Origin: Candidatus Binatia bacterium
GTDB lineage: Bacteria; Desulfobacterota; Binatia; Bin18
DNA: 64,000 nucleotides
Direction of reading: 5' to 3'
Assembly: GCA_951812575.1 (NCBI GenBank)
Contig: OX638322.1
Coordinates: 1,084,850 to 1,148,849 of the forward strand
This document shows, in pieces, positions 4,145-29,276 of the stretch; position 1 is the stretch's first letter, and each line of letters begins with the position of its first letter. The notes under the pieces are model-generated. The model saw only the letters and a program-made list of their open reading frames with translations, was not told where the DNA came from and made no database searches. Position numbers and translations under genes: made by a program.

Positions 4145-5614
4145 TTAGATGCGACCTCTTCTCCATAACATAATCAGGCTCAGAACCAAAATGAGTTCCG
4201 GCGGGAATAAGACCAGTAATACAAAGGTGTCCTCAAGCGACTCGGGCGCAACGATCATCTGCGTTGGTGTCCGCGTTTGCCGCACAATGCGCACTCCCCC
4301 CGCATCCTGTGTAAGCCACCGCATACACCCGACCACCACGTCCTGATTCGCCAGACGCGACAGCCCGGCGTTGGTCACAAAGCCCTGGCTGCCGAATATG
4401 GCCAGGCGCGTCGGGGTGGGCGCCTGGGGGGCGGGGTATTCTCCGGTTATACCGAATATGAGAAATCCCTGACCGGAAGCTCTCGCGGCGGCCAGGGCGG
4501 GAGCCAGGGCCGGAGAGAGCTGAGCAGACTCATCACTGACCAATGCGGGCCGGACCTCAGCTCCCTGAGGCAGCTCACCCCAGACCCGGAGCGGGAAAAA
4601 GCCGGACAGCAGAGCCACACTATTGCGGGGCACGACCTGAGCAAGGGGATGACCGATGACTGGACGGGCAGCGACACGCTGAGTCCGCCACTGGGTGTCC
4701 CAGACAATACCAAGCTCGGCAAACAGCTCCTGCCAAACTGTCGCCTGAGCCGAAGAGAGAAAGAAAAGGACCCTGCCGCCGGAGCGCAGATACCGGGCGA
4801 CTTCGTCCTGCTCCTCCACCAGGGGGGCTGTGGTACCGGACGGTACCACGAGGAGGTCGGCATCAGTCGGTATCGCCAGCGTGCTGACCAACACCAGACG
4901 CCGCGGCTGGTAACGCTCTTGCCGGAGGACGGCGGCGAGTTGGGCAAAGCCCGCCGGGCCAGAGTCATCAAGGGCCGGCTCACCATGTCCGGCCAGGATA
5001 TAGACACGCTTCGGTGTGGTCAGACGCAGGCGTCCAAGGGCATTGGTGACCGCCTCCTCGGTCACGCTCGACAGAAATTCCGTGCGCTCACCCATACGCA
5101 AAAGGACGCCTTCTCCAGGCAGCGCGACCTCGGCTGTGGCGTGCTCAGGGTCACCCCAGCCCCTGATCTGGATAAGGTCTGAGGCGCGGCGATAGCGCTC
5201 TAACACCGCCAGCGCTGCGGTTTCCCGTCGAGCGGACAGGTTCACCACGACCTCGACCGGTTGTGACACAGTCCGCAGGGCGGCCAGACTGGCCGGGGTG
5301 AGGCTGTGCACTTGGTCGGGAGTCAAATCGAGCCAGACTTTCCGGCCACTCAGCATCACCACCACTACGCCCAGAATGGACACCCCGGCCCACACCAGGC
5401 GGCGCGGCCAAAAAAAAGGGGAGAGCCGTGCGGAGCGGTCTCGCCGGACAAGCCATTGTCCCCAACTCCAGCCACATACGCCGACAGCGGCCAGACCGGC
5501 GTGGAGGAGGACAAAGAGGGTGGGGCCACCCATGAGATACCAGCCCACCCCGGCAAACAGACCAAAGAGCACTCCGAGCAGCCCGAGCAGGCGTATCCAG
5601 CGTATCTGGCTCAT
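4145..5614 (-). CDS. GldG-like ABC transporter auxiliary protein (operon 1)
   Basis: This 489-residue protein has helices at the N-terminus (two pairs within the first 110 residues), a large extracytoplasmic region and one helix near the C-terminus before WRRGRI. The soluble part carries the family's GHGEPALDD segment and the 'DLLVVPSG' region of the GldG/ABC_transp_aux domain, which resembles a periplasmic binding or IFT52-like fold. GldG-type proteins act with a small ATPase and a permease (GldA, GldF). All three are present here in the order ATPase, permease, GldG, with only three bases between permease and GldG. A paralogue lies at 51900-53450. Confidence 0.85.
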   Translation of the reverse strand: MSQIRWIRLLGLLGVLFGLFAGVGWYLMGGPTLFVLLHAGLAAVGVCGWSWGQWLVRRDRSARLSPFFWPRRLVWAGVSILGVVVVMLSGRKVWLDLTPDQVHSLTPASLAALRTVSQPVEVVVNLSARRETAALAVLERYRRASDLIQIRGWGDPEHATAEVALPGEGVLLRMGERTEFLSSVTEEAVTNALGRLRLTTPKRVYILAGHGEPALDDSGPAGFAQLAAVLRQERYQPRRLVLVSTLAIPTDADLLVVPSGTTAPLVEEQDEVARYLRSGGRVLFFLSSAQATVWQELFAELGIVWDTQWRTQRVAARPVIGHPLAQVVPRNSVALLSGFFPLRVWGELPQGAEVRPALVSDESAQLSPALAPALAAARASGQGFLIFGITGEYPAPQAPTPTRLAIFGSQGFVTNAGLSRLANQDVVVGCMRWLTQDAGGVRIVRQTRTPTQMIVAPESLEDTFVLLVLFPPELILVLSLIMLWRRGRI

Positions 5615-5617
5615 GTG

Positions 5618-6406
5618 CTATCCGGCCCGGCTCAGGAGGAGGCTGCCTGAGGTCAGAAAAAGGAAGAAGCACGTGGCTGCGACAAAATAGGTCATATCCT
5701 GCCCGCTCAAAACTCCCTGGGCAAAACTTTCCATATGGCTCGACAATGCCAGCCACTCCAGCCTGCGCGCTCCTGCTGTTGTGACAAAATTGTACGCCCA
5801 GGAGAAATCATACCACACCACGGCACCCATATAGGCCAGCAGCACAGCCACGCTCTGACGGGCAGTCAGGGATGAGCAAAAAAGCCCAAGCCCAACCAGG
5901 GCCATCCCGACACAGACCAGACCGACAAACACGCCCAGCAGGGGTCCGACCGCGATGCCAACCTTCCAAGACAGGGCCAGCGGAAAGCCAAAGGCGATGA
6001 CGATCATCACATTCAGAAACGACCAGCAGGCAAGGAATTTGCCAAGCGCAAGCTGACCGGCGGTCACCTGGCTGGTAAAGAGTAGCGCCAGGGTCCCCGT
6101 GCGTTTTTCTTCGGCCACGGTCCGCATCGTCAGTATGGGCACGAATACCGTTAGGAGCAGTACCAGTTGAAACAGAAAGGGGGTCAGGAGTTGGTCCTCG
6201 ACATTCAGCTCAGGGGGTAAGGTTCCGGACAAATCGGGTAAGACCAGCTGCATCTCGGCCCGGAACAGCAACTCGTTATAGCGCTGGACGCGGTCAAAAA
6301 AGAACACTCCTGCCATGAGCCAGAATCCTCCGCTCACGCTCAGCACCGTTGCCGAAGAGAAGAAGACCTGCCATTCCTTGCGGTATATCGCTAAAATTTT
6401 GCGCAT
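5618..6406 (-). CDS. ABC transporter permease, GldF-like (operon 1)
   Basis: The 262-residue membrane protein has about six helices. It starts MRKILAIYRKEW, the usual 'K-E-x' entry of ABC-2 permeases, and carries the conserved segment MRTVAEEKRTGTLALLFTS after the second helix. I chose ATG 6406 because homology starts there; the frame opens 27 codons earlier but that stretch overlaps nothing recognisable. It forms the membrane channel of a Gld-type exporter with the ATPase at 6453-7163 and the GldG-like protein at 4145-5614. Its paralogue is at 53455-54225. Confidence 0.87.
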   Translation of the reverse strand: MRKILAIYRKEWQVFFSSATVLSVSGGFWLMAGVFFFDRVQRYNELLFRAEMQLVLPDLSGTLPPELNVEDQLLTPFLFQLVLLLTVFVPILTMRTVAEEKRTGTLALLFTSQVTAGQLALGKFLACWSFLNVMIVIAFGFPLALSWKVGIAVGPLLGVFVGLVCVGMALVGLGLFCSSLTARQSVAVLLAYMGAVVWYDFSWAYNFVTTAGARRLEWLALSSHMESFAQGVLSGQDMTYFVAATCFFLFLTSGSLLLSRAG

Positions 6407-6452
6407 CAGTCCTCGGTCCGTATGCCTCCGTTGGGGATAGACTGGAGACTGG

Positions 6453-7163
6453 TTATGGAGTCCGTTGCCATAACGAAAGCACGTCATGGGCGGCCATGTT
6501 TTCCTCCAGCCGTTCGTCAGCGATCATTTCACCGGACTGCAAGAACACCACCCGCTGACACCAGTCGGCCACATCCTGCAACATGTGGGTGCTCAGCACG
6601 GTCGTCTGTCCGGTGCTGACTTTTCGAAATGTCTGGGCAACGGCTTCTCCCTCCACCGGATCCAGTCCATTCGTGGGCTCATCAAGGATGAGCAGGTCGG
6701 GTTCATGCAGCCGCGCCTGGGCCAAAGAGACTCGTTGACGAAAGCCGAGGGACAAGGTGCGAATGACCTGAGCAGTCACCGCTCCAAGCTGGCACTCTTC
6801 CACAACCGCCGCAATCCGCTCGGCCAAACGCGCCTGGAATAACCCTTGCAGGGTCCCCATAAAGCCGAGATACGCCTGCACGCTTAAATCCTCATACAGC
6901 GCCGGTTGTTCAGGCACCAGTCCGATACGGGTCTGCACCCGATCTCGTTGGCGGTAGAGGTCCACGGTCCCAAGCAGGACTCGGCCGCGGGTCGGGGCCA
7001 AATTGCCGGAGAGGAGGCGAAGTAAGGTCGTCTTTCCCGCACCGTTGGCTCCGACCACGGCGACAACTTCACCCGGCATGATATCGAGGCTGATGTTACG
7101 CAGACACCAACGATCACCCAGGAGTCGAGAGACATTTTCGAGTTTCAGCAGAGGGGGTCGCAT
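6453..7163 (-). CDS. ABC transporter ATPase (operon 1)
   Basis: This 236-residue nucleotide-binding subunit has Walker A GANGAGKTT at residues 38-46, a signature of the form LSLGFRQRV in place of LSGGQ, and Walker B LLILDEPTNGLDP. The 'GFRQRV' signature is typical of the GldA/CcmA-like branch. I set the start at ATG 7163 (MRPPLLKLENVS), where the ATPase fold begins. It is the first gene of a minus-strand operon that continues through the permease, GldG-like, YCF48, RND and DUF1302-like genes. It powers export across the inner membrane; the substrate is unknown. Confidence 0.92.
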   Translation of the reverse strand: MRPPLLKLENVSRLLGDRWCLRNISLDIMPGEVVAVVGANGAGKTTLLRLLSGNLAPTRGRVLLGTVDLYRQRDRVQTRIGLVPEQPALYEDLSVQAYLGFMGTLQGLFQARLAERIAAVVEECQLGAVTAQVIRTLSLGFRQRVSLAQARLHEPDLLILDEPTNGLDPVEGEAVAQTFRKVSTGQTTVLSTHMLQDVADWCQRVVFLQSGEMIADERLEENMAAHDVLSLWQRTP

Positions 7164-7296
7164 TGTGAGGTCTTCGCAACAGGAAGGTAAAAAGAACGCC
7201 CTCCCAGGCGCGACTATTCGCCTCTGGTGGTAACTCCTTCCCTCAGAGACTGTCAAGTTATGCTCATACCTAGAGCAGTACAGTCTCGCGGTTCAA

Positions 7297-25464: not shown

Positions 25465-26646
25465 TTAGCGCAACCGCACATCACGGTAGTTCTTACCAGG
25501 AACGATTTTTCCAAGAACAGCCGGCAGCCGCGCGCCGGTTGCACTCGGCACGTTCGAGGGCAGGCCGTACACGGTCGCATAGGCGAGAACGGCAAACGCC
25601 AAGGCTTCCAACGACTGGCTCTCATAGCCGGTCTCTTCGAGCAGTCGGACGCGGACATCCGGCAGGGCCTGAGCGAATTGCGCTCGCAGAGTCGGGTTGA
25701 GTGCTCCACCACCGGTGAGGTAGACCTCAACGAGCGGGCCGTGCGGCAGGATAAAGTCGTGATACGCGCGAGCCATGCTCGTGGCGGTGACGGCGCTTGC
25801 CGTCGCCACTTGGTCGTTGGGGGATAGCTTGAGTTGGGCCGCGCGTTTGAGAAACCGCTCGGCAAACGGCGCACCGAATTCTTCCCTGCCGGTCGACTTG
25901 GGCGGACGCCGGGCAAAATACCGATGCCGGAGCAGTTCGTCCAGGAAACGTGCGTGCACGCTCCCGGCTTTGGCCATCCGGCCGTTCCGGTCGTACCACT
26001 GCTTGCCCTGAGTAACCGTATGGACAACGGTGTCGATCAACATATTCCCAGGGCCGGTATCAAAGGCCAGCAGATCTTGTTCTGCCGAACGAGGCGGCAG
26101 GTAGGTGAGGTTGGCAATCCCGCCGATATTATGCACGGCGACCGCACGGCTGGGCTGTTGAAACAGAAACGCATGCACATAGGGAACGAGCGGCGCCCCC
26201 TCTCCTCCCAGCGCCACGTCTGCCGGCCGAAAGTCGGCTATCGTCGTAATACCAGTCCGCTGCGCAATGACGGCAGGTTCTCCGATCTGGAGGGTTGAAC
26301 CCGGTCCGGGTCGCTGGTGAGGGTTGTGATAAACAGTATGTCCGTGGGAGCCGATGGCATCGACCTGCTCCCACGAGACGGCTGCACGTTCGCACAGCTT
26401 GCGCACCGCCCGGGCAAACAGCTCACCGAGAAGAACATTGACTTGTGAGACTTCGCCGGCATCAATCCGGGCTCCCTGGCTGACGCTCAACAAACGGGCT
26501 CTCACCGGTCGGGAGTACGGGAATGAGCGGAATGCCCGTTGTTGAATCCGGAAGCGGCCCCTGACGCGGGCAATATCGACCAGCACGGCATCAATCCCAT
26601 CATGAGACGTGCCCGACATCAGGCCGATAACCGTCCGTTTTGACAT
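25465..26646 (-). CDS. anmK: Anhydro-N-acetylmuramic acid kinase
   Basis: The 393-residue kinase phosphorylates and opens 1,6-anhydro-MurNAc during recycling of peptidoglycan. The N-terminus has the ATP-loop VIGLMSGTSHDGIDAVLVD. Further on come IGSHGHTVYHNP, the catalytic-site region LQIGEPAVIAQRTGI and TIADFRPADVALGGEGAPLV, and AFDTGPGNMLID. The C-terminal GGGALNPTL is typical of the ASKHA fold. The full length is as expected. It precedes the dehydrogenase on the same strand. No other recycling genes are adjacent. Confidence 0.95.
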   Translation of the reverse strand: MSKRTVIGLMSGTSHDGIDAVLVDIARVRGRFRIQQRAFRSFPYSRPVRARLLSVSQGARIDAGEVSQVNVLLGELFARAVRKLCERAAVSWEQVDAIGSHGHTVYHNPHQRPGPGSTLQIGEPAVIAQRTGITTIADFRPADVALGGEGAPLVPYVHAFLFQQPSRAVAVHNIGGIANLTYLPPRSAEQDLLAFDTGPGNMLIDTVVHTVTQGKQWYDRNGRMAKAGSVHARFLDELLRHRYFARRPPKSTGREEFGAPFAERFLKRAAQLKLSPNDQVATASAVTATSMARAYHDFILPHGPLVEVYLTGGGALNPTLRAQFAQALPDVRVRLLEETGYESQSLEALAFAVLAYATVYGLPSNVPSATGARLPAVLGKIVPGKNYRDVRLR

Positions 26647-26753: not shown

Positions 26754-27092
26754 TCAGTCGGTCAGATCAAACTGAAAGACGGCATCCATGCCCTTGGCTG
26801 CCTCGGGGTTGAACCCCTCCGGCATGCCGTCAATGACTTCCTGTACGGTTTCCAGCGGCGGGCTGCCGGCCTCCGGCGGCGAAAAGAGGTTTTGGAGCCT
26901 GAGCGCCAGACCCATATCTCCGGCAATTTTCAGCTTGCCGCTCATGAACGCCATTTGGCCGTTGAGTTTACCGTTGATCATATCCAGGTAATCACTCTCC
27001 TTCATGGTGAGAGTAATGTTCGGGGACGCATGGGTGCCCATCTGCACCTCGATACTTTCGTTCGCGATATGGAAATGGTACTGGGTGGCCAT
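26754..27092 (-). CDS. SCP2 sterol-binding-like protein with circularly permuted order
   Basis: The 112-residue protein contains every part of a bacterial SCP2 domain, in swapped order. It starts with the second strand ([19 protein letters not shown]), continues through [17 protein letters not shown] and [20 protein letters not shown], then a Pro/Gly linker ([11 protein letters not shown]). It ends with what is normally the N-terminus: [14 protein letters not shown] and [15 protein letters not shown]. The start has a strong GAGGAGGAAG site and the stop follows DLTD directly, so it is not an edge artefact. SCP2 domains bind lipids in a hydrophobic pocket. The ligand is unknown. Confidence 0.88.
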
Positions 27093-27190
27093 CGCGGCTT
27101 CCTCCTCATAAGTTCAGAATACAGATACGCTACCATAGATCATTGCACTGAGAAACTATAGATCGTGTTGTTGTATAGAGAGAAGAAGGC

Positions 27191-27733
27191 ATGAACATGA
27201 CACAATGTGACAAAGAGGGAACGTGTTCTTCAACAGATAGACAGGAGGCGACACGTTTCCTCTTTACGGTATGGAAACGTCGCTGGGCCGGGCTGGTGCT
27301 CCTTTTTGGAAGTCTGTTTATAGGAATGTCCAGCTACGCTCAGGAGAGCGGACTTCAGAATGATCTGGCCCAGGTCGCCAATGAATCAACGCTCGAAATC
27401 ACGACTATCGGGCGCAAAAGTGGCAAGCCGCGGACCAAACCGATCTGGTTTGTCTACGACCAGGGAGCGTTGTATATCCAATCGGGAAAAGACGGAAAAA
27501 CCCATTGGTATCGCAACCTGCAAAAAAATCCGCAGATGCAGTTAAAAATCGGCCAACTCTCCCTCACTGGAAGAGCACAATTTGTGACAGACTTGGCTGA
27601 GAGCGAACGGGTCCACGATCTTTTTCGCTCAAAATATTCTCTCGCGCGGGTGGCCGGACTTGTCGGGTCCTCAATCGGGCATGGCAAGGTCGTTCTGGTT
27701 GAGCAATTGGCTGAATTCACGGCGCAGGAGTAG
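27191..27733 (+). CDS. Deazaflavin-dependent nitroreductase-like protein, membrane-anchored or exported
   Basis: The 180-residue protein has a split-barrel domain of the DDN/DUF385 type: LEITTIGRKSGKPRTKPIWF, then ALYIQSGKDGKTHWYRNLQKNPQ and GRAQFVTD. Such enzymes use cofactor F420 or related flavins, or bind lipids. It is preceded by a hydrophobic segment (WAGLVLLFGSLFIGMSSYA) that reads as a signal peptide or anchor. Residues about 8-25 are encoded by palindromic repeat copy D, so the N-terminus is repeat-derived. The start at ATG 27191 has only a weak AGAAGAAGG site. The next gene, ispD, starts seven bases after its stop. Confidence 0.75.
   Translation: MNMTQCDKEGTCSSTDRQEATRFLFTVWKRRWAGLVLLFGSLFIGMSSYAQESGLQNDLAQVANESTLEITTIGRKSGKPRTKPIWFVYDQGALYIQSGKDGKTHWYRNLQKNPQMQLKIGQLSLTGRAQFVTDLAESERVHDLFRSKYSLARVAGLVGSSIGHGKVVLVEQLAEFTAQE
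27212..27265 (+). repeat. Palindromic repeat PR54, copy D (inside a coding frame)
   Basis: The arms AAAGAGGGAACGTGTTC and GACACGTTTCCTCTTT flank a loop with CAACAGATAGACAGGAGG; total 54 bp. Changes from copy B in one arm are partly matched in the other (GGGAA with TTTCC), keeping the stem. The element is translated in frame near the start of the deazaflavin-type reductase. Confidence 0.8.
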
Positions 27734-27740
27734 GCGTCGT

Positions 27741-28442
27741 ATGCACGTCAACGTGGTCATTGTTGCCGCGGGAAAAGGGACGCGGCTGCAAAGCGAGCTG
27801 CCCAAACCTTTTCTGTCTATTGCCGGTAGTCCGATTCTCGTGCATACCCTGCGGCGTTTTGCCCCCATTGAGGCGATCCGGCGCATGGTCGTTGTCGTTG
27901 CTGCCGAACGCGAGGCTCTTTGCCAGGAGGTACTCCACACGCACGGCCCCTGGCCACAACCGATTACCGTTGTCCACGGGGGAGCGGAACGGCAGGATTC
28001 GGTCCGGAACGGCCTGGCCGCGCTTGAGACGCAGTGCGAGGTCGTGGTGATTCATGACGCGGCTCGGCCGTTTATCAGCGTTGAGGTAATTCAGCGCAGT
28101 ATTGACGCGGCGACCGAAGCGGGCAGCGCAGTTGTGGCGACTCCTGTCCGCGACACCATTAAGCGGGCCGACGCGCAGCACACGATCCGTGAGACGGTCT
28201 CCCGGCAGGACTTGTGGCTGGCGCAAACCCCTCAGACATTCCAGGTCGAAGTAATCCGAGCCGCCCACCGCTGGGCGCAGCAACGGGGTATGGCGGGAAC
28301 GGACGATGCCAGCCTGGTTGAGCAAATGGGTCGGCCCGTCCGCATCGTTCCCAGCGACGCGCTCAATTTCAAGATCACAACACCGGACGATCTGGCTCTC
28401 GCCCAGGCAGTACTCCAGGCACCAAACGGTGTGTGGCAGTGA
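27741..28442 (+). CDS. ispD: 2-C-methyl-D-erythritol 4-phosphate cytidylyltransferase
   Basis: The 233-residue enzyme joins CTP and MEP in the non-mevalonate isoprenoid pathway. Motifs are VVIVAAGKGTRLQ with the later Lys in ELPKPFL (CTP-binding loop), VVIHDAARPFI, ATPVRDTIK, RQDLWLAQTPQTF and TDDASLVEQMG, with NFKITTPDDLALA at the end. The start ATG 27741 fits the family N-terminus. ispF is not in the window. Its last 50 codons and the bases after the stop have a diverged second copy at about 29103-29300. Confidence 0.96.
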   Translation: MHVNVVIVAAGKGTRLQSELPKPFLSIAGSPILVHTLRRFAPIEAIRRMVVVVAAEREALCQEVLHTHGPWPQPITVVHGGAERQDSVRNGLAALETQCEVVVIHDAARPFISVEVIQRSIDAATEAGSAVVATPVRDTIKRADAQHTIRETVSRQDLWLAQTPQTFQVEVIRAAHRWAQQRGMAGTDDASLVEQMGRPVRIVPSDALNFKITTPDDLALAQAVLQAPNGVWQ

Positions 28443-28544: not shown

Positions 28545-28784
28545 ATGGCTCCCACCATTCACAGAGAACGAGGGTTCCGGTTCTTTTTCTTCTCCCGAGA
28601 GGAGCCGCGGATACATGTTCACGTTATCCGCGCGGAAGGTGAGGCCAAGTTTTGGCTGGAACCGGAGATTGAACTTGCGAGGAACTATGGATTGTCACGT
28701 ATCCAATTGAAGGAAGCAGAAGAGATTGTAGAGGAGCGTCAAAATGAGTTCCGAGCCGCTTGGCATGAGCACTTCGGAAGTTGA
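28545..28784 (+). CDS. DUF4160 protein, probable toxin-antitoxin member
   Basis: The 79-residue protein matches DUF4160: MAPTIHRERGFRFFFFSREE, then IHVHVIRAEGEAKFWL and LARNYGLSRIQLKEAEEIVEE. It overlaps the following DUF2442 gene by 41 bases. DUF4160 and DUF2442 proteins occur together as paired small genes that have been predicted to be a toxin-antitoxin-like module; which is which has not been settled from sequence. The pair lies between intact ispD and its duplicated 3' end, in a low-density accessory patch. Confidence 0.85.
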   Translation: MAPTIHRERGFRFFFFSREEPRIHVHVIRAEGEAKFWLEPEIELARNYGLSRIQLKEAEEIVEERQNEFRAAWHEHFGS

Positions 28785-29013
28785 GATTACGAGTATCTCT
28801 GCGCACGGCGTCTGGCTGCTCGCCGGCGAAGAGGAACTTTTCCTCCCTTATGATGATTTTCCATGGTTCAAAGATGTTTCCGTGGGGAAAATCCTGAACG
28901 TGAGGGAACCAACTCCCGGTCACTTTTATTGGCCCGAGCTAGACGTTGATCTCGGGGTGGAAACCATTCGCCATCCCGACCGTTTTCCACTTCGAGCTCA
29001 ACGTGATACTTAG
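28744..29013 (+). CDS. DUF2442 protein, partner of DUF4160
   Basis: The 89-residue protein has the DUF2442 pattern: ITSISAHGVWLLAGEEELFL, YDDFPWFKDVSVGKILNV, then FYWPELDVDLGVETIRHPDRF. The start ATG 28744 lies inside the DUF4160 gene, and an ATG at 28765 is also possible. Overlap implies coupled translation. The function is inferred only from pairing with DUF4160. Confidence 0.85.
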   Translation: MSSEPLGMSTSEVEITSISAHGVWLLAGEEELFLPYDDFPWFKDVSVGKILNVREPTPGHFYWPELDVDLGVETIRHPDRFPLRAQRDT

Positions 29014-29102: not shown

Positions 29103-29276
29103 GGGGGCGTCGTGGAAACGGACGCTGCAACCTTGATTGAGCAAATGGGCCGACCCGTCCGCATCGTTCCCGGCGACACACTCAATTTCAAGATTACGAC
29201 ACCAGATGACCTGGCTCTCGCCAAGGTAGTGCTGCAAGCGTCCCAACCGGGTATGGTCGGAATGACGAAGAATTGA
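29103..29276 (+). pseudogene. Diverged second copy of the ispD 3' end
   Basis: The segment encodes IEQMGRPVRIVPGDTLNFK and ITTPDDLALAKVVLQA, close to the last 50 codons of ispD (VEQMGRPVRIVPSDALNFK, ITTPDDLALAQAVLQA). Similarity continues past the stop, where TTGATGGTGTATAGTCAG resembles TTGATACCGTGTAGCCAG after ispD. The upstream nine-tenths of the gene is absent. It may be the displaced end left when the DUF4160/DUF2442 segment entered ispD, or the trace of a partial duplication. Confidence 0.75.

Follow-up and report, generated by a model that had tools for sequence, protein, structure and literature searches.

A circularly permuted SCP2-domain protein conserved in one order of Binatia

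The permuted gene and its surroundings

The DNA analysed here (the window) is a 64,000-nucleotide stretch from a member of the Binatia order Bin18, an order with a notable association with sponges (PMC8262859). It carries a short gene encoding an SCP2-domain protein in which the two parts of the domain occur in reversed order (Table 1). This gene is the sole Pfam SCP2 match in its own genome (5.18 Mb, one contig), and by eye its product has no signal sequence. A preliminary description of the locus had pointed to a strong ribosome-binding site and to a stop directly at the cut, and both are readily recognized: an AGGAGG site precedes the ATG and TGA follows immediately upon FQFDLTD. A longer protein from an upstream start was considered and rejected, as the in-frame sequence upstream is not conserved from genus to genus and the position of the ATG is given by the AGGAGG site.

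The divergently transcribed neighbour, coding for an F420H2_quin_red/PNPOx-like protein with a signal-peptide-like start, adjoins the permuted gene throughout the order, wherever the contig is long enough to include it. Elsewhere in the window, two small overlapping ORFs at 28545-29013, the second of which encodes a DUF2442 protein (PF10387), possibly represent a two-gene toxin-antitoxin-like pair. Additionally, part of the 3' end of ispD recurs 819 nt further downstream (28285-28420 and 29104-29239; 136 nt, 82% identical), representing a partial and decayed tandem duplication in the vicinity of the SCP2 gene.

Table 1. Features of the permuted SCP2 locus (window coordinates)
Feature	Position	Strand	Evidence or remark
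Circularly permuted SCP2-domain gene, 112 aa	26754..27092	-	ATG at 27092; TGA stop 26754-26756
Segment 1, residues 3-71: strand 2 through C-terminal helix of the ordinary SCP2 domain	26880..27086	-	PF02036 positions 33-100; ordinary-relative model 41-109, 116.5 bits
Variable linker, residues 72-82, old C-terminus to old N-terminus	26847..26879	-	Length about 10-12 residues in every member, low conservation; pLDDT down to 77
Segment 2, residues 83-112: helix 1 and strand 1 from the N-terminus of the ordinary SCP2 domain, C-terminal here	26757..26846	-	Ordinary-relative model 6-36, E 1.8e-8
Ribosome-binding site AGGAGG, 8 nt 5' of ATG	27101..27106	-	Read in the sequence; AGGAGG-type site before ATG in 15/15 copies with readable start
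F420H2_quin_red/PNPOx-like flavin- or F420-binding protein, divergently transcribed	27191..27733	+	PF04075, E 4.6e-13; tblastn adjacency
anmK, anhydro-N-acetylmuramic acid kinase	25465..26646	-	PF03702; next gene downstream in this genus and one other genus

Two swapped segments and their predicted fold

Searched with the protein as encoded, the Pfam SCP2 profile (PF02036; 101 positions) matches residues 3-70 only. The score of 69.8 bits exceeds the curated gathering score of 21.3, placing the protein in the SCP2 family; there is no one-piece match in ordinary order, the start of the domain being located behind the core, at residues 81-111. If the sequence is rejoined in ordinary order, the score rises to 81.5 bits and the match extends over profile positions 13-100. 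The preliminary description had proposed an SCP2 protein that starts at strand 2 and ends with its N-terminal part, to be recognized by two partial profile matches in reversed order. Pfam gives the core only. Such a pair was obtained, however, with a model built from 54 ordinary-order relatives only: the unaltered protein matches it in two segments (Table 1), the second of which (residues 81-111, 30.5 bits) corresponds to the start of the model. Together both segments cover the domain, as in a natural circular permutation. Moreover, when all 112 rotations of the protein were scored, a single peak was found at break points in the linker (about 69-84), with 162 bits compared to 149 bits unrotated. 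End-to-end alignment with ordinary-order relatives, which the same description had named as counter-evidence, fails, as these align only in two swapped pieces.

Pfam alone reports just the core and nothing in the isolated 30-residue tail, which would fit a truncated SCP2 with a C-terminal extension that resembles an SCP2 N-terminus by chance, a concern raised at the outset. When the moved tail by itself is compared with a model of ordinary SCP2 N-termini, however, its score is 60.1 bits, while the best of 1000 shuffles reaches 12.0 bits and the reversed tail 0.8 bits. Furthermore, rejoining lifts the score of the whole protein by 12-14 bits, and 17 of 29 tail columns share the consensus residue of the sister family, about the same as between two ordinary clades (16/29). 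Chance resemblance is rejected by the shuffles and rotations, and we consider it exceedingly improbable.

Comparison with ordinary proteins locates the cut in the GDGGG turn that links strands 1 and 2 in ordinary domains, in line with the turn originally suggested: ordinary ...QFDLSGDGGG/KWH... (the slash marks the cut) has become ...QFDLTD-stop and Met-Ala-Thr-QYH... in the permuted protein. A short linker of variable sequence leads from the old C-terminal helix to the old helix 1 and strand 1, and the protein now begins and ends at the former strand 1-strand 2 turn.

Structure prediction, suggested earlier as a further check, agrees with this arrangement. With 15 sequences, the best AlphaFold2 model of the permuted protein has a pLDDT of 90.9 and a pTM of 0.80 (the other four models have pLDDT values of 89, near 75 in two cases, and 47); for an ordinary sister these values are 90.1 and 0.82. 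Strands (E) and helices (H) of the permuted model are E3-10, E13-18, E26-31, H32-39, H45-50, E55-58 and H60-69, followed behind the linker by H83-93 and E103-111. Those of the sister are H8-18 and E28-36, followed behind the turn by E41-48, E51-56, E64-69, H70-77, H83-88, E93-96 and H98-107. After rotation at the strand 1-2 turn, the nine predicted elements correspond one to one with nearly equal lengths, and all secondary-structure elements of the SCP2 fold are thus present in the prediction. Using Foldseek, which keeps sequence order, the ordinary model aligns with SCP2 structures from rabbit and human along about 105-115 columns (TM about 0.79), whereas the permuted model aligns over only about 55-67 columns (TM about 0.47), as expected of a permutant.

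The chain would close into the usual SCP2 fold, with strands 3-10 and 103-111 presumably pairing as the former hairpin, and the new ends may lie near the ligand pocket, as the preliminary description suggested. The predictions covered monomers only, and the linker between the core and helix 1-strand 1 would also allow a domain-swapped dimer, whose two chains complete each other's sheets with their tails instead of folding back on themselves. Since linker length is nearly constant and the monomer, strand 103-111 included, is predicted with high confidence, such a dimer appears improbable.

Conservation and origin of the permutation

The permuted architecture is found in all 16 genomes of the order (one family, 7 genera). 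Fifteen copies are full length and align from residue 1 to 111 or 112 with 68-98% identity; in the remaining one the contig ends at residue 28, with the core-then-tail order still visible. Among 148 Binatia genomes scanned at E ≤ 1e-8, these 16 run from core through tail as one chain, while 91 others match the core only, and in every locus of other families with both pieces placed, the tail piece lies upstream of the core. Of the homologues that the preliminary description had suggested looking for, those with the same order exist, but two-domain ancestors were not found in these 148 genomes. Within the order, distant paralogues with an SCP2 domain (L113-L116, L123) have the ordinary arrangement, in one piece. 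Other genera of the order also encode proteins of about 220-276 aa (L117, L118, L119, L120, L121, L122) with two overlapping SCP2-model matches (about 28-66 and 54-105), as if the domain had received a large insertion or had undergone a diverged duplication. Outside the class, no permuted SCP2 was detected in 195, 68 and 95 genomes of three other phyla (those of L092, L076 and L087, respectively) at E ≤ 1e-22, a threshold that can miss divergent permutants; all matches were core only.

A maximum-likelihood tree was constructed from 69 sequences, all written in ordinary order (111 columns). The permuted proteins form one clade (support 100/99), corresponding to one change of state, nested among ordinary-order Binatia proteins as sister to family f9. 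Because the tree rests on 111 columns, its deeper forks are weak. The permuted form is fixed in its lineage, being present throughout the order within this single clade, and a single rearrangement of an ordinary SCP2 gene of the class took place, no later than the common ancestor of the order.

Within the genus, dN/dS is 0.05-0.36 for the core and 0.08-0.18 for the moved tail (few substitutions), and the linker is the only loose part of the protein. It had been pointed out that a sequencing error might have split a tandem SCP2-SCP2 gene. Such a gene, broken by a sequencing or assembly error, or a decaying pseudogene fragment, would look alike in having a stop directly at the cut. Against this, the 16 copies come from many separate assemblies, two of them single-contig, and start, stop and length are identical in the 15 complete copies. 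Purifying selection acts on core and tail, and the 400-nt flanks on either side of the gene contain no SCP2 remnants (best E 6.1). A split or mis-assembled tandem gene is rejected by the conserved architecture across assemblies and the empty flanks, and we attach next to no probability to it. The product of the gene is almost certainly a true, working circular permutant of an SCP2 lipid carrier with a single domain, its functional role being a predicted one.

As to how the permutation arose, the preliminary description had invoked tandem duplication followed by trimming, and permutation by duplication is indeed the best mechanism and a likely one, although no fused intermediate was found. Two head-to-tail SCP2 copies would have fused in frame; a new ATG and ribosome site would then have arisen in the first copy at the strand 1-2 turn, trimming the start of that copy, and a new stop would have arisen at the same turn in the second copy, trimming its rest. 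This model predicts that two copies fuse and that start and stop codons then arise anew at corresponding positions (PMC3320104), and the location of both cuts at the same turn counts in its favour. In addition, the linker residues before the moved helix 1 are similar to the leader seen in ordinary proteins (MAEAPTSCKQAF), as would follow from fusion of an entire second copy. A near-perfect tandem duplication in L070, from another family of the class (about 5250-6250 and 6257-7257, period 1007 nt), either real or an assembly artefact, contains a complete ordinary SCP2 gene; unless it is an artefact, such duplications do arise in the class.

On the other hand, neither a fused SCP2-SCP2 gene nor a half-trimmed intermediate was found among the 148 genomes of the class, the only tandem copies being the unfused ones in L070. 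This lowers the probability of an origin by duplication, which is still the likelier route, and as the flanks hold no remnants of trimmed parts, the duplication step cannot be shown directly. The same two observations would suit cut-and-paste, or fission and fusion, a recognized alternative model (PMC3320104); the helix 1-strand 1 piece would then have been excised and re-joined behind the core. This alternative is rather unlikely, since the tail keeps leader-like residues before helix 1, ordinary SCP2 genes do occur in tandem copies within the class, and two cuts at the same turn are simply explained by duplication with a new start and stop. Neighbouring genes mostly differ between permuted and ordinary SCP2 genes, so that a change in place is not demonstrated by synteny. 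A conserved context shared by both types was looked for and rejected, as only one ordinary locus (L075) has anmK downstream, too little for synteny.

Inferred function and comparison with known systems

The permuted protein is most likely a cytosolic carrier of a hydrophobic ligand, as SCP2 domains are. Candidate ligands would be an acyl chain, an isoprenoid quinone or a hopanoid precursor rather than a sterol. A sterol is unlikely as native ligand because squalene epoxidase (PF08491) is absent from the genome itself (it is present in 3 of the 16 genomes of the order) and a squalene-hopene cyclase family match is present. The conserved F420H2-quinone-reductase/PNPOx-like neighbour hints at possible work on quinones or other redox lipids.

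Natural circular permutations are known, many of them ancient and visible only with structures. A literature search joining circular permutation with SCP2 or sterol carrier protein returned nothing relevant within its coverage, outside which most subscription journals lie, and circular permutation of SCP2 is apparently undescribed in the literature searched. It is somewhat more probable than the opposite that this is the first natural circular permutation to be documented for the SCP2 fold, that it became fixed a single time, in the ancestor of an order within a well-sampled class with ordinary sisters, and that the position of its new termini at the hairpin may have altered ligand entry or the binding of partners, perhaps together with the divergent F420H2-quinone-reductase-like neighbour. 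If so, the natural pair would allow the structural and functional effect of moved ends in a lipid carrier to be measured. The SCP2 permutant is a clean, conserved, lineage-specific natural example, a single event with the cut located to within a few residues, and it constitutes a natural test of the tolerance of a lipid carrier to moved ends. It also illustrates that domain searches assuming ordinary order under-report such proteins, as Pfam shows just a truncated SCP2 here.

The closest counterparts are the single-domain SCP2 proteins of ordinary order from other families of Binatia (e.g., L045 and L018), which resemble the permuted protein in domain, length class and predicted elements and are about 60-75% identical to it over the core; the permutation is confined to one order and is visible from sequence alone. 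They differ in that helix 1-strand 1 comes first, leading through the GDGGG turn into strand 2, and in lacking a linker behind the C-terminal helix. Mammalian SCP2 (1c44, 2c0l) and the SCP2-like domain of human MFE-2 (1ikt) share the fold family, mammalian SCP2 being 43% identical over the matched stretch of the model; unlike the permuted protein, these domains are of ordinary order and are eukaryotic and peroxisomal. Among bacteria, UbiJ and UbiT are SCP2-domain accessory factors of ubiquinone synthesis (PMC6747719) and likewise bind hydrophobic intermediates, but they have the ordinary order and another context. The permuted protein is not assigned to UbiT (NF047962), its NCBIfam match of 24.1 bits lying below the curated cut-off of 46.9. 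Finally, swaposin (the plant-specific insert) and saposin provide a parallel, namely a small lipid-related fold with two natural circular orders, attributed to tandem duplication (PMC3320104). Swaposin, however, has an unrelated all-helical fold and lies within a protease, whereas the permuted SCP2 protein is encoded by a free-standing bacterial gene with close ordinary sisters.
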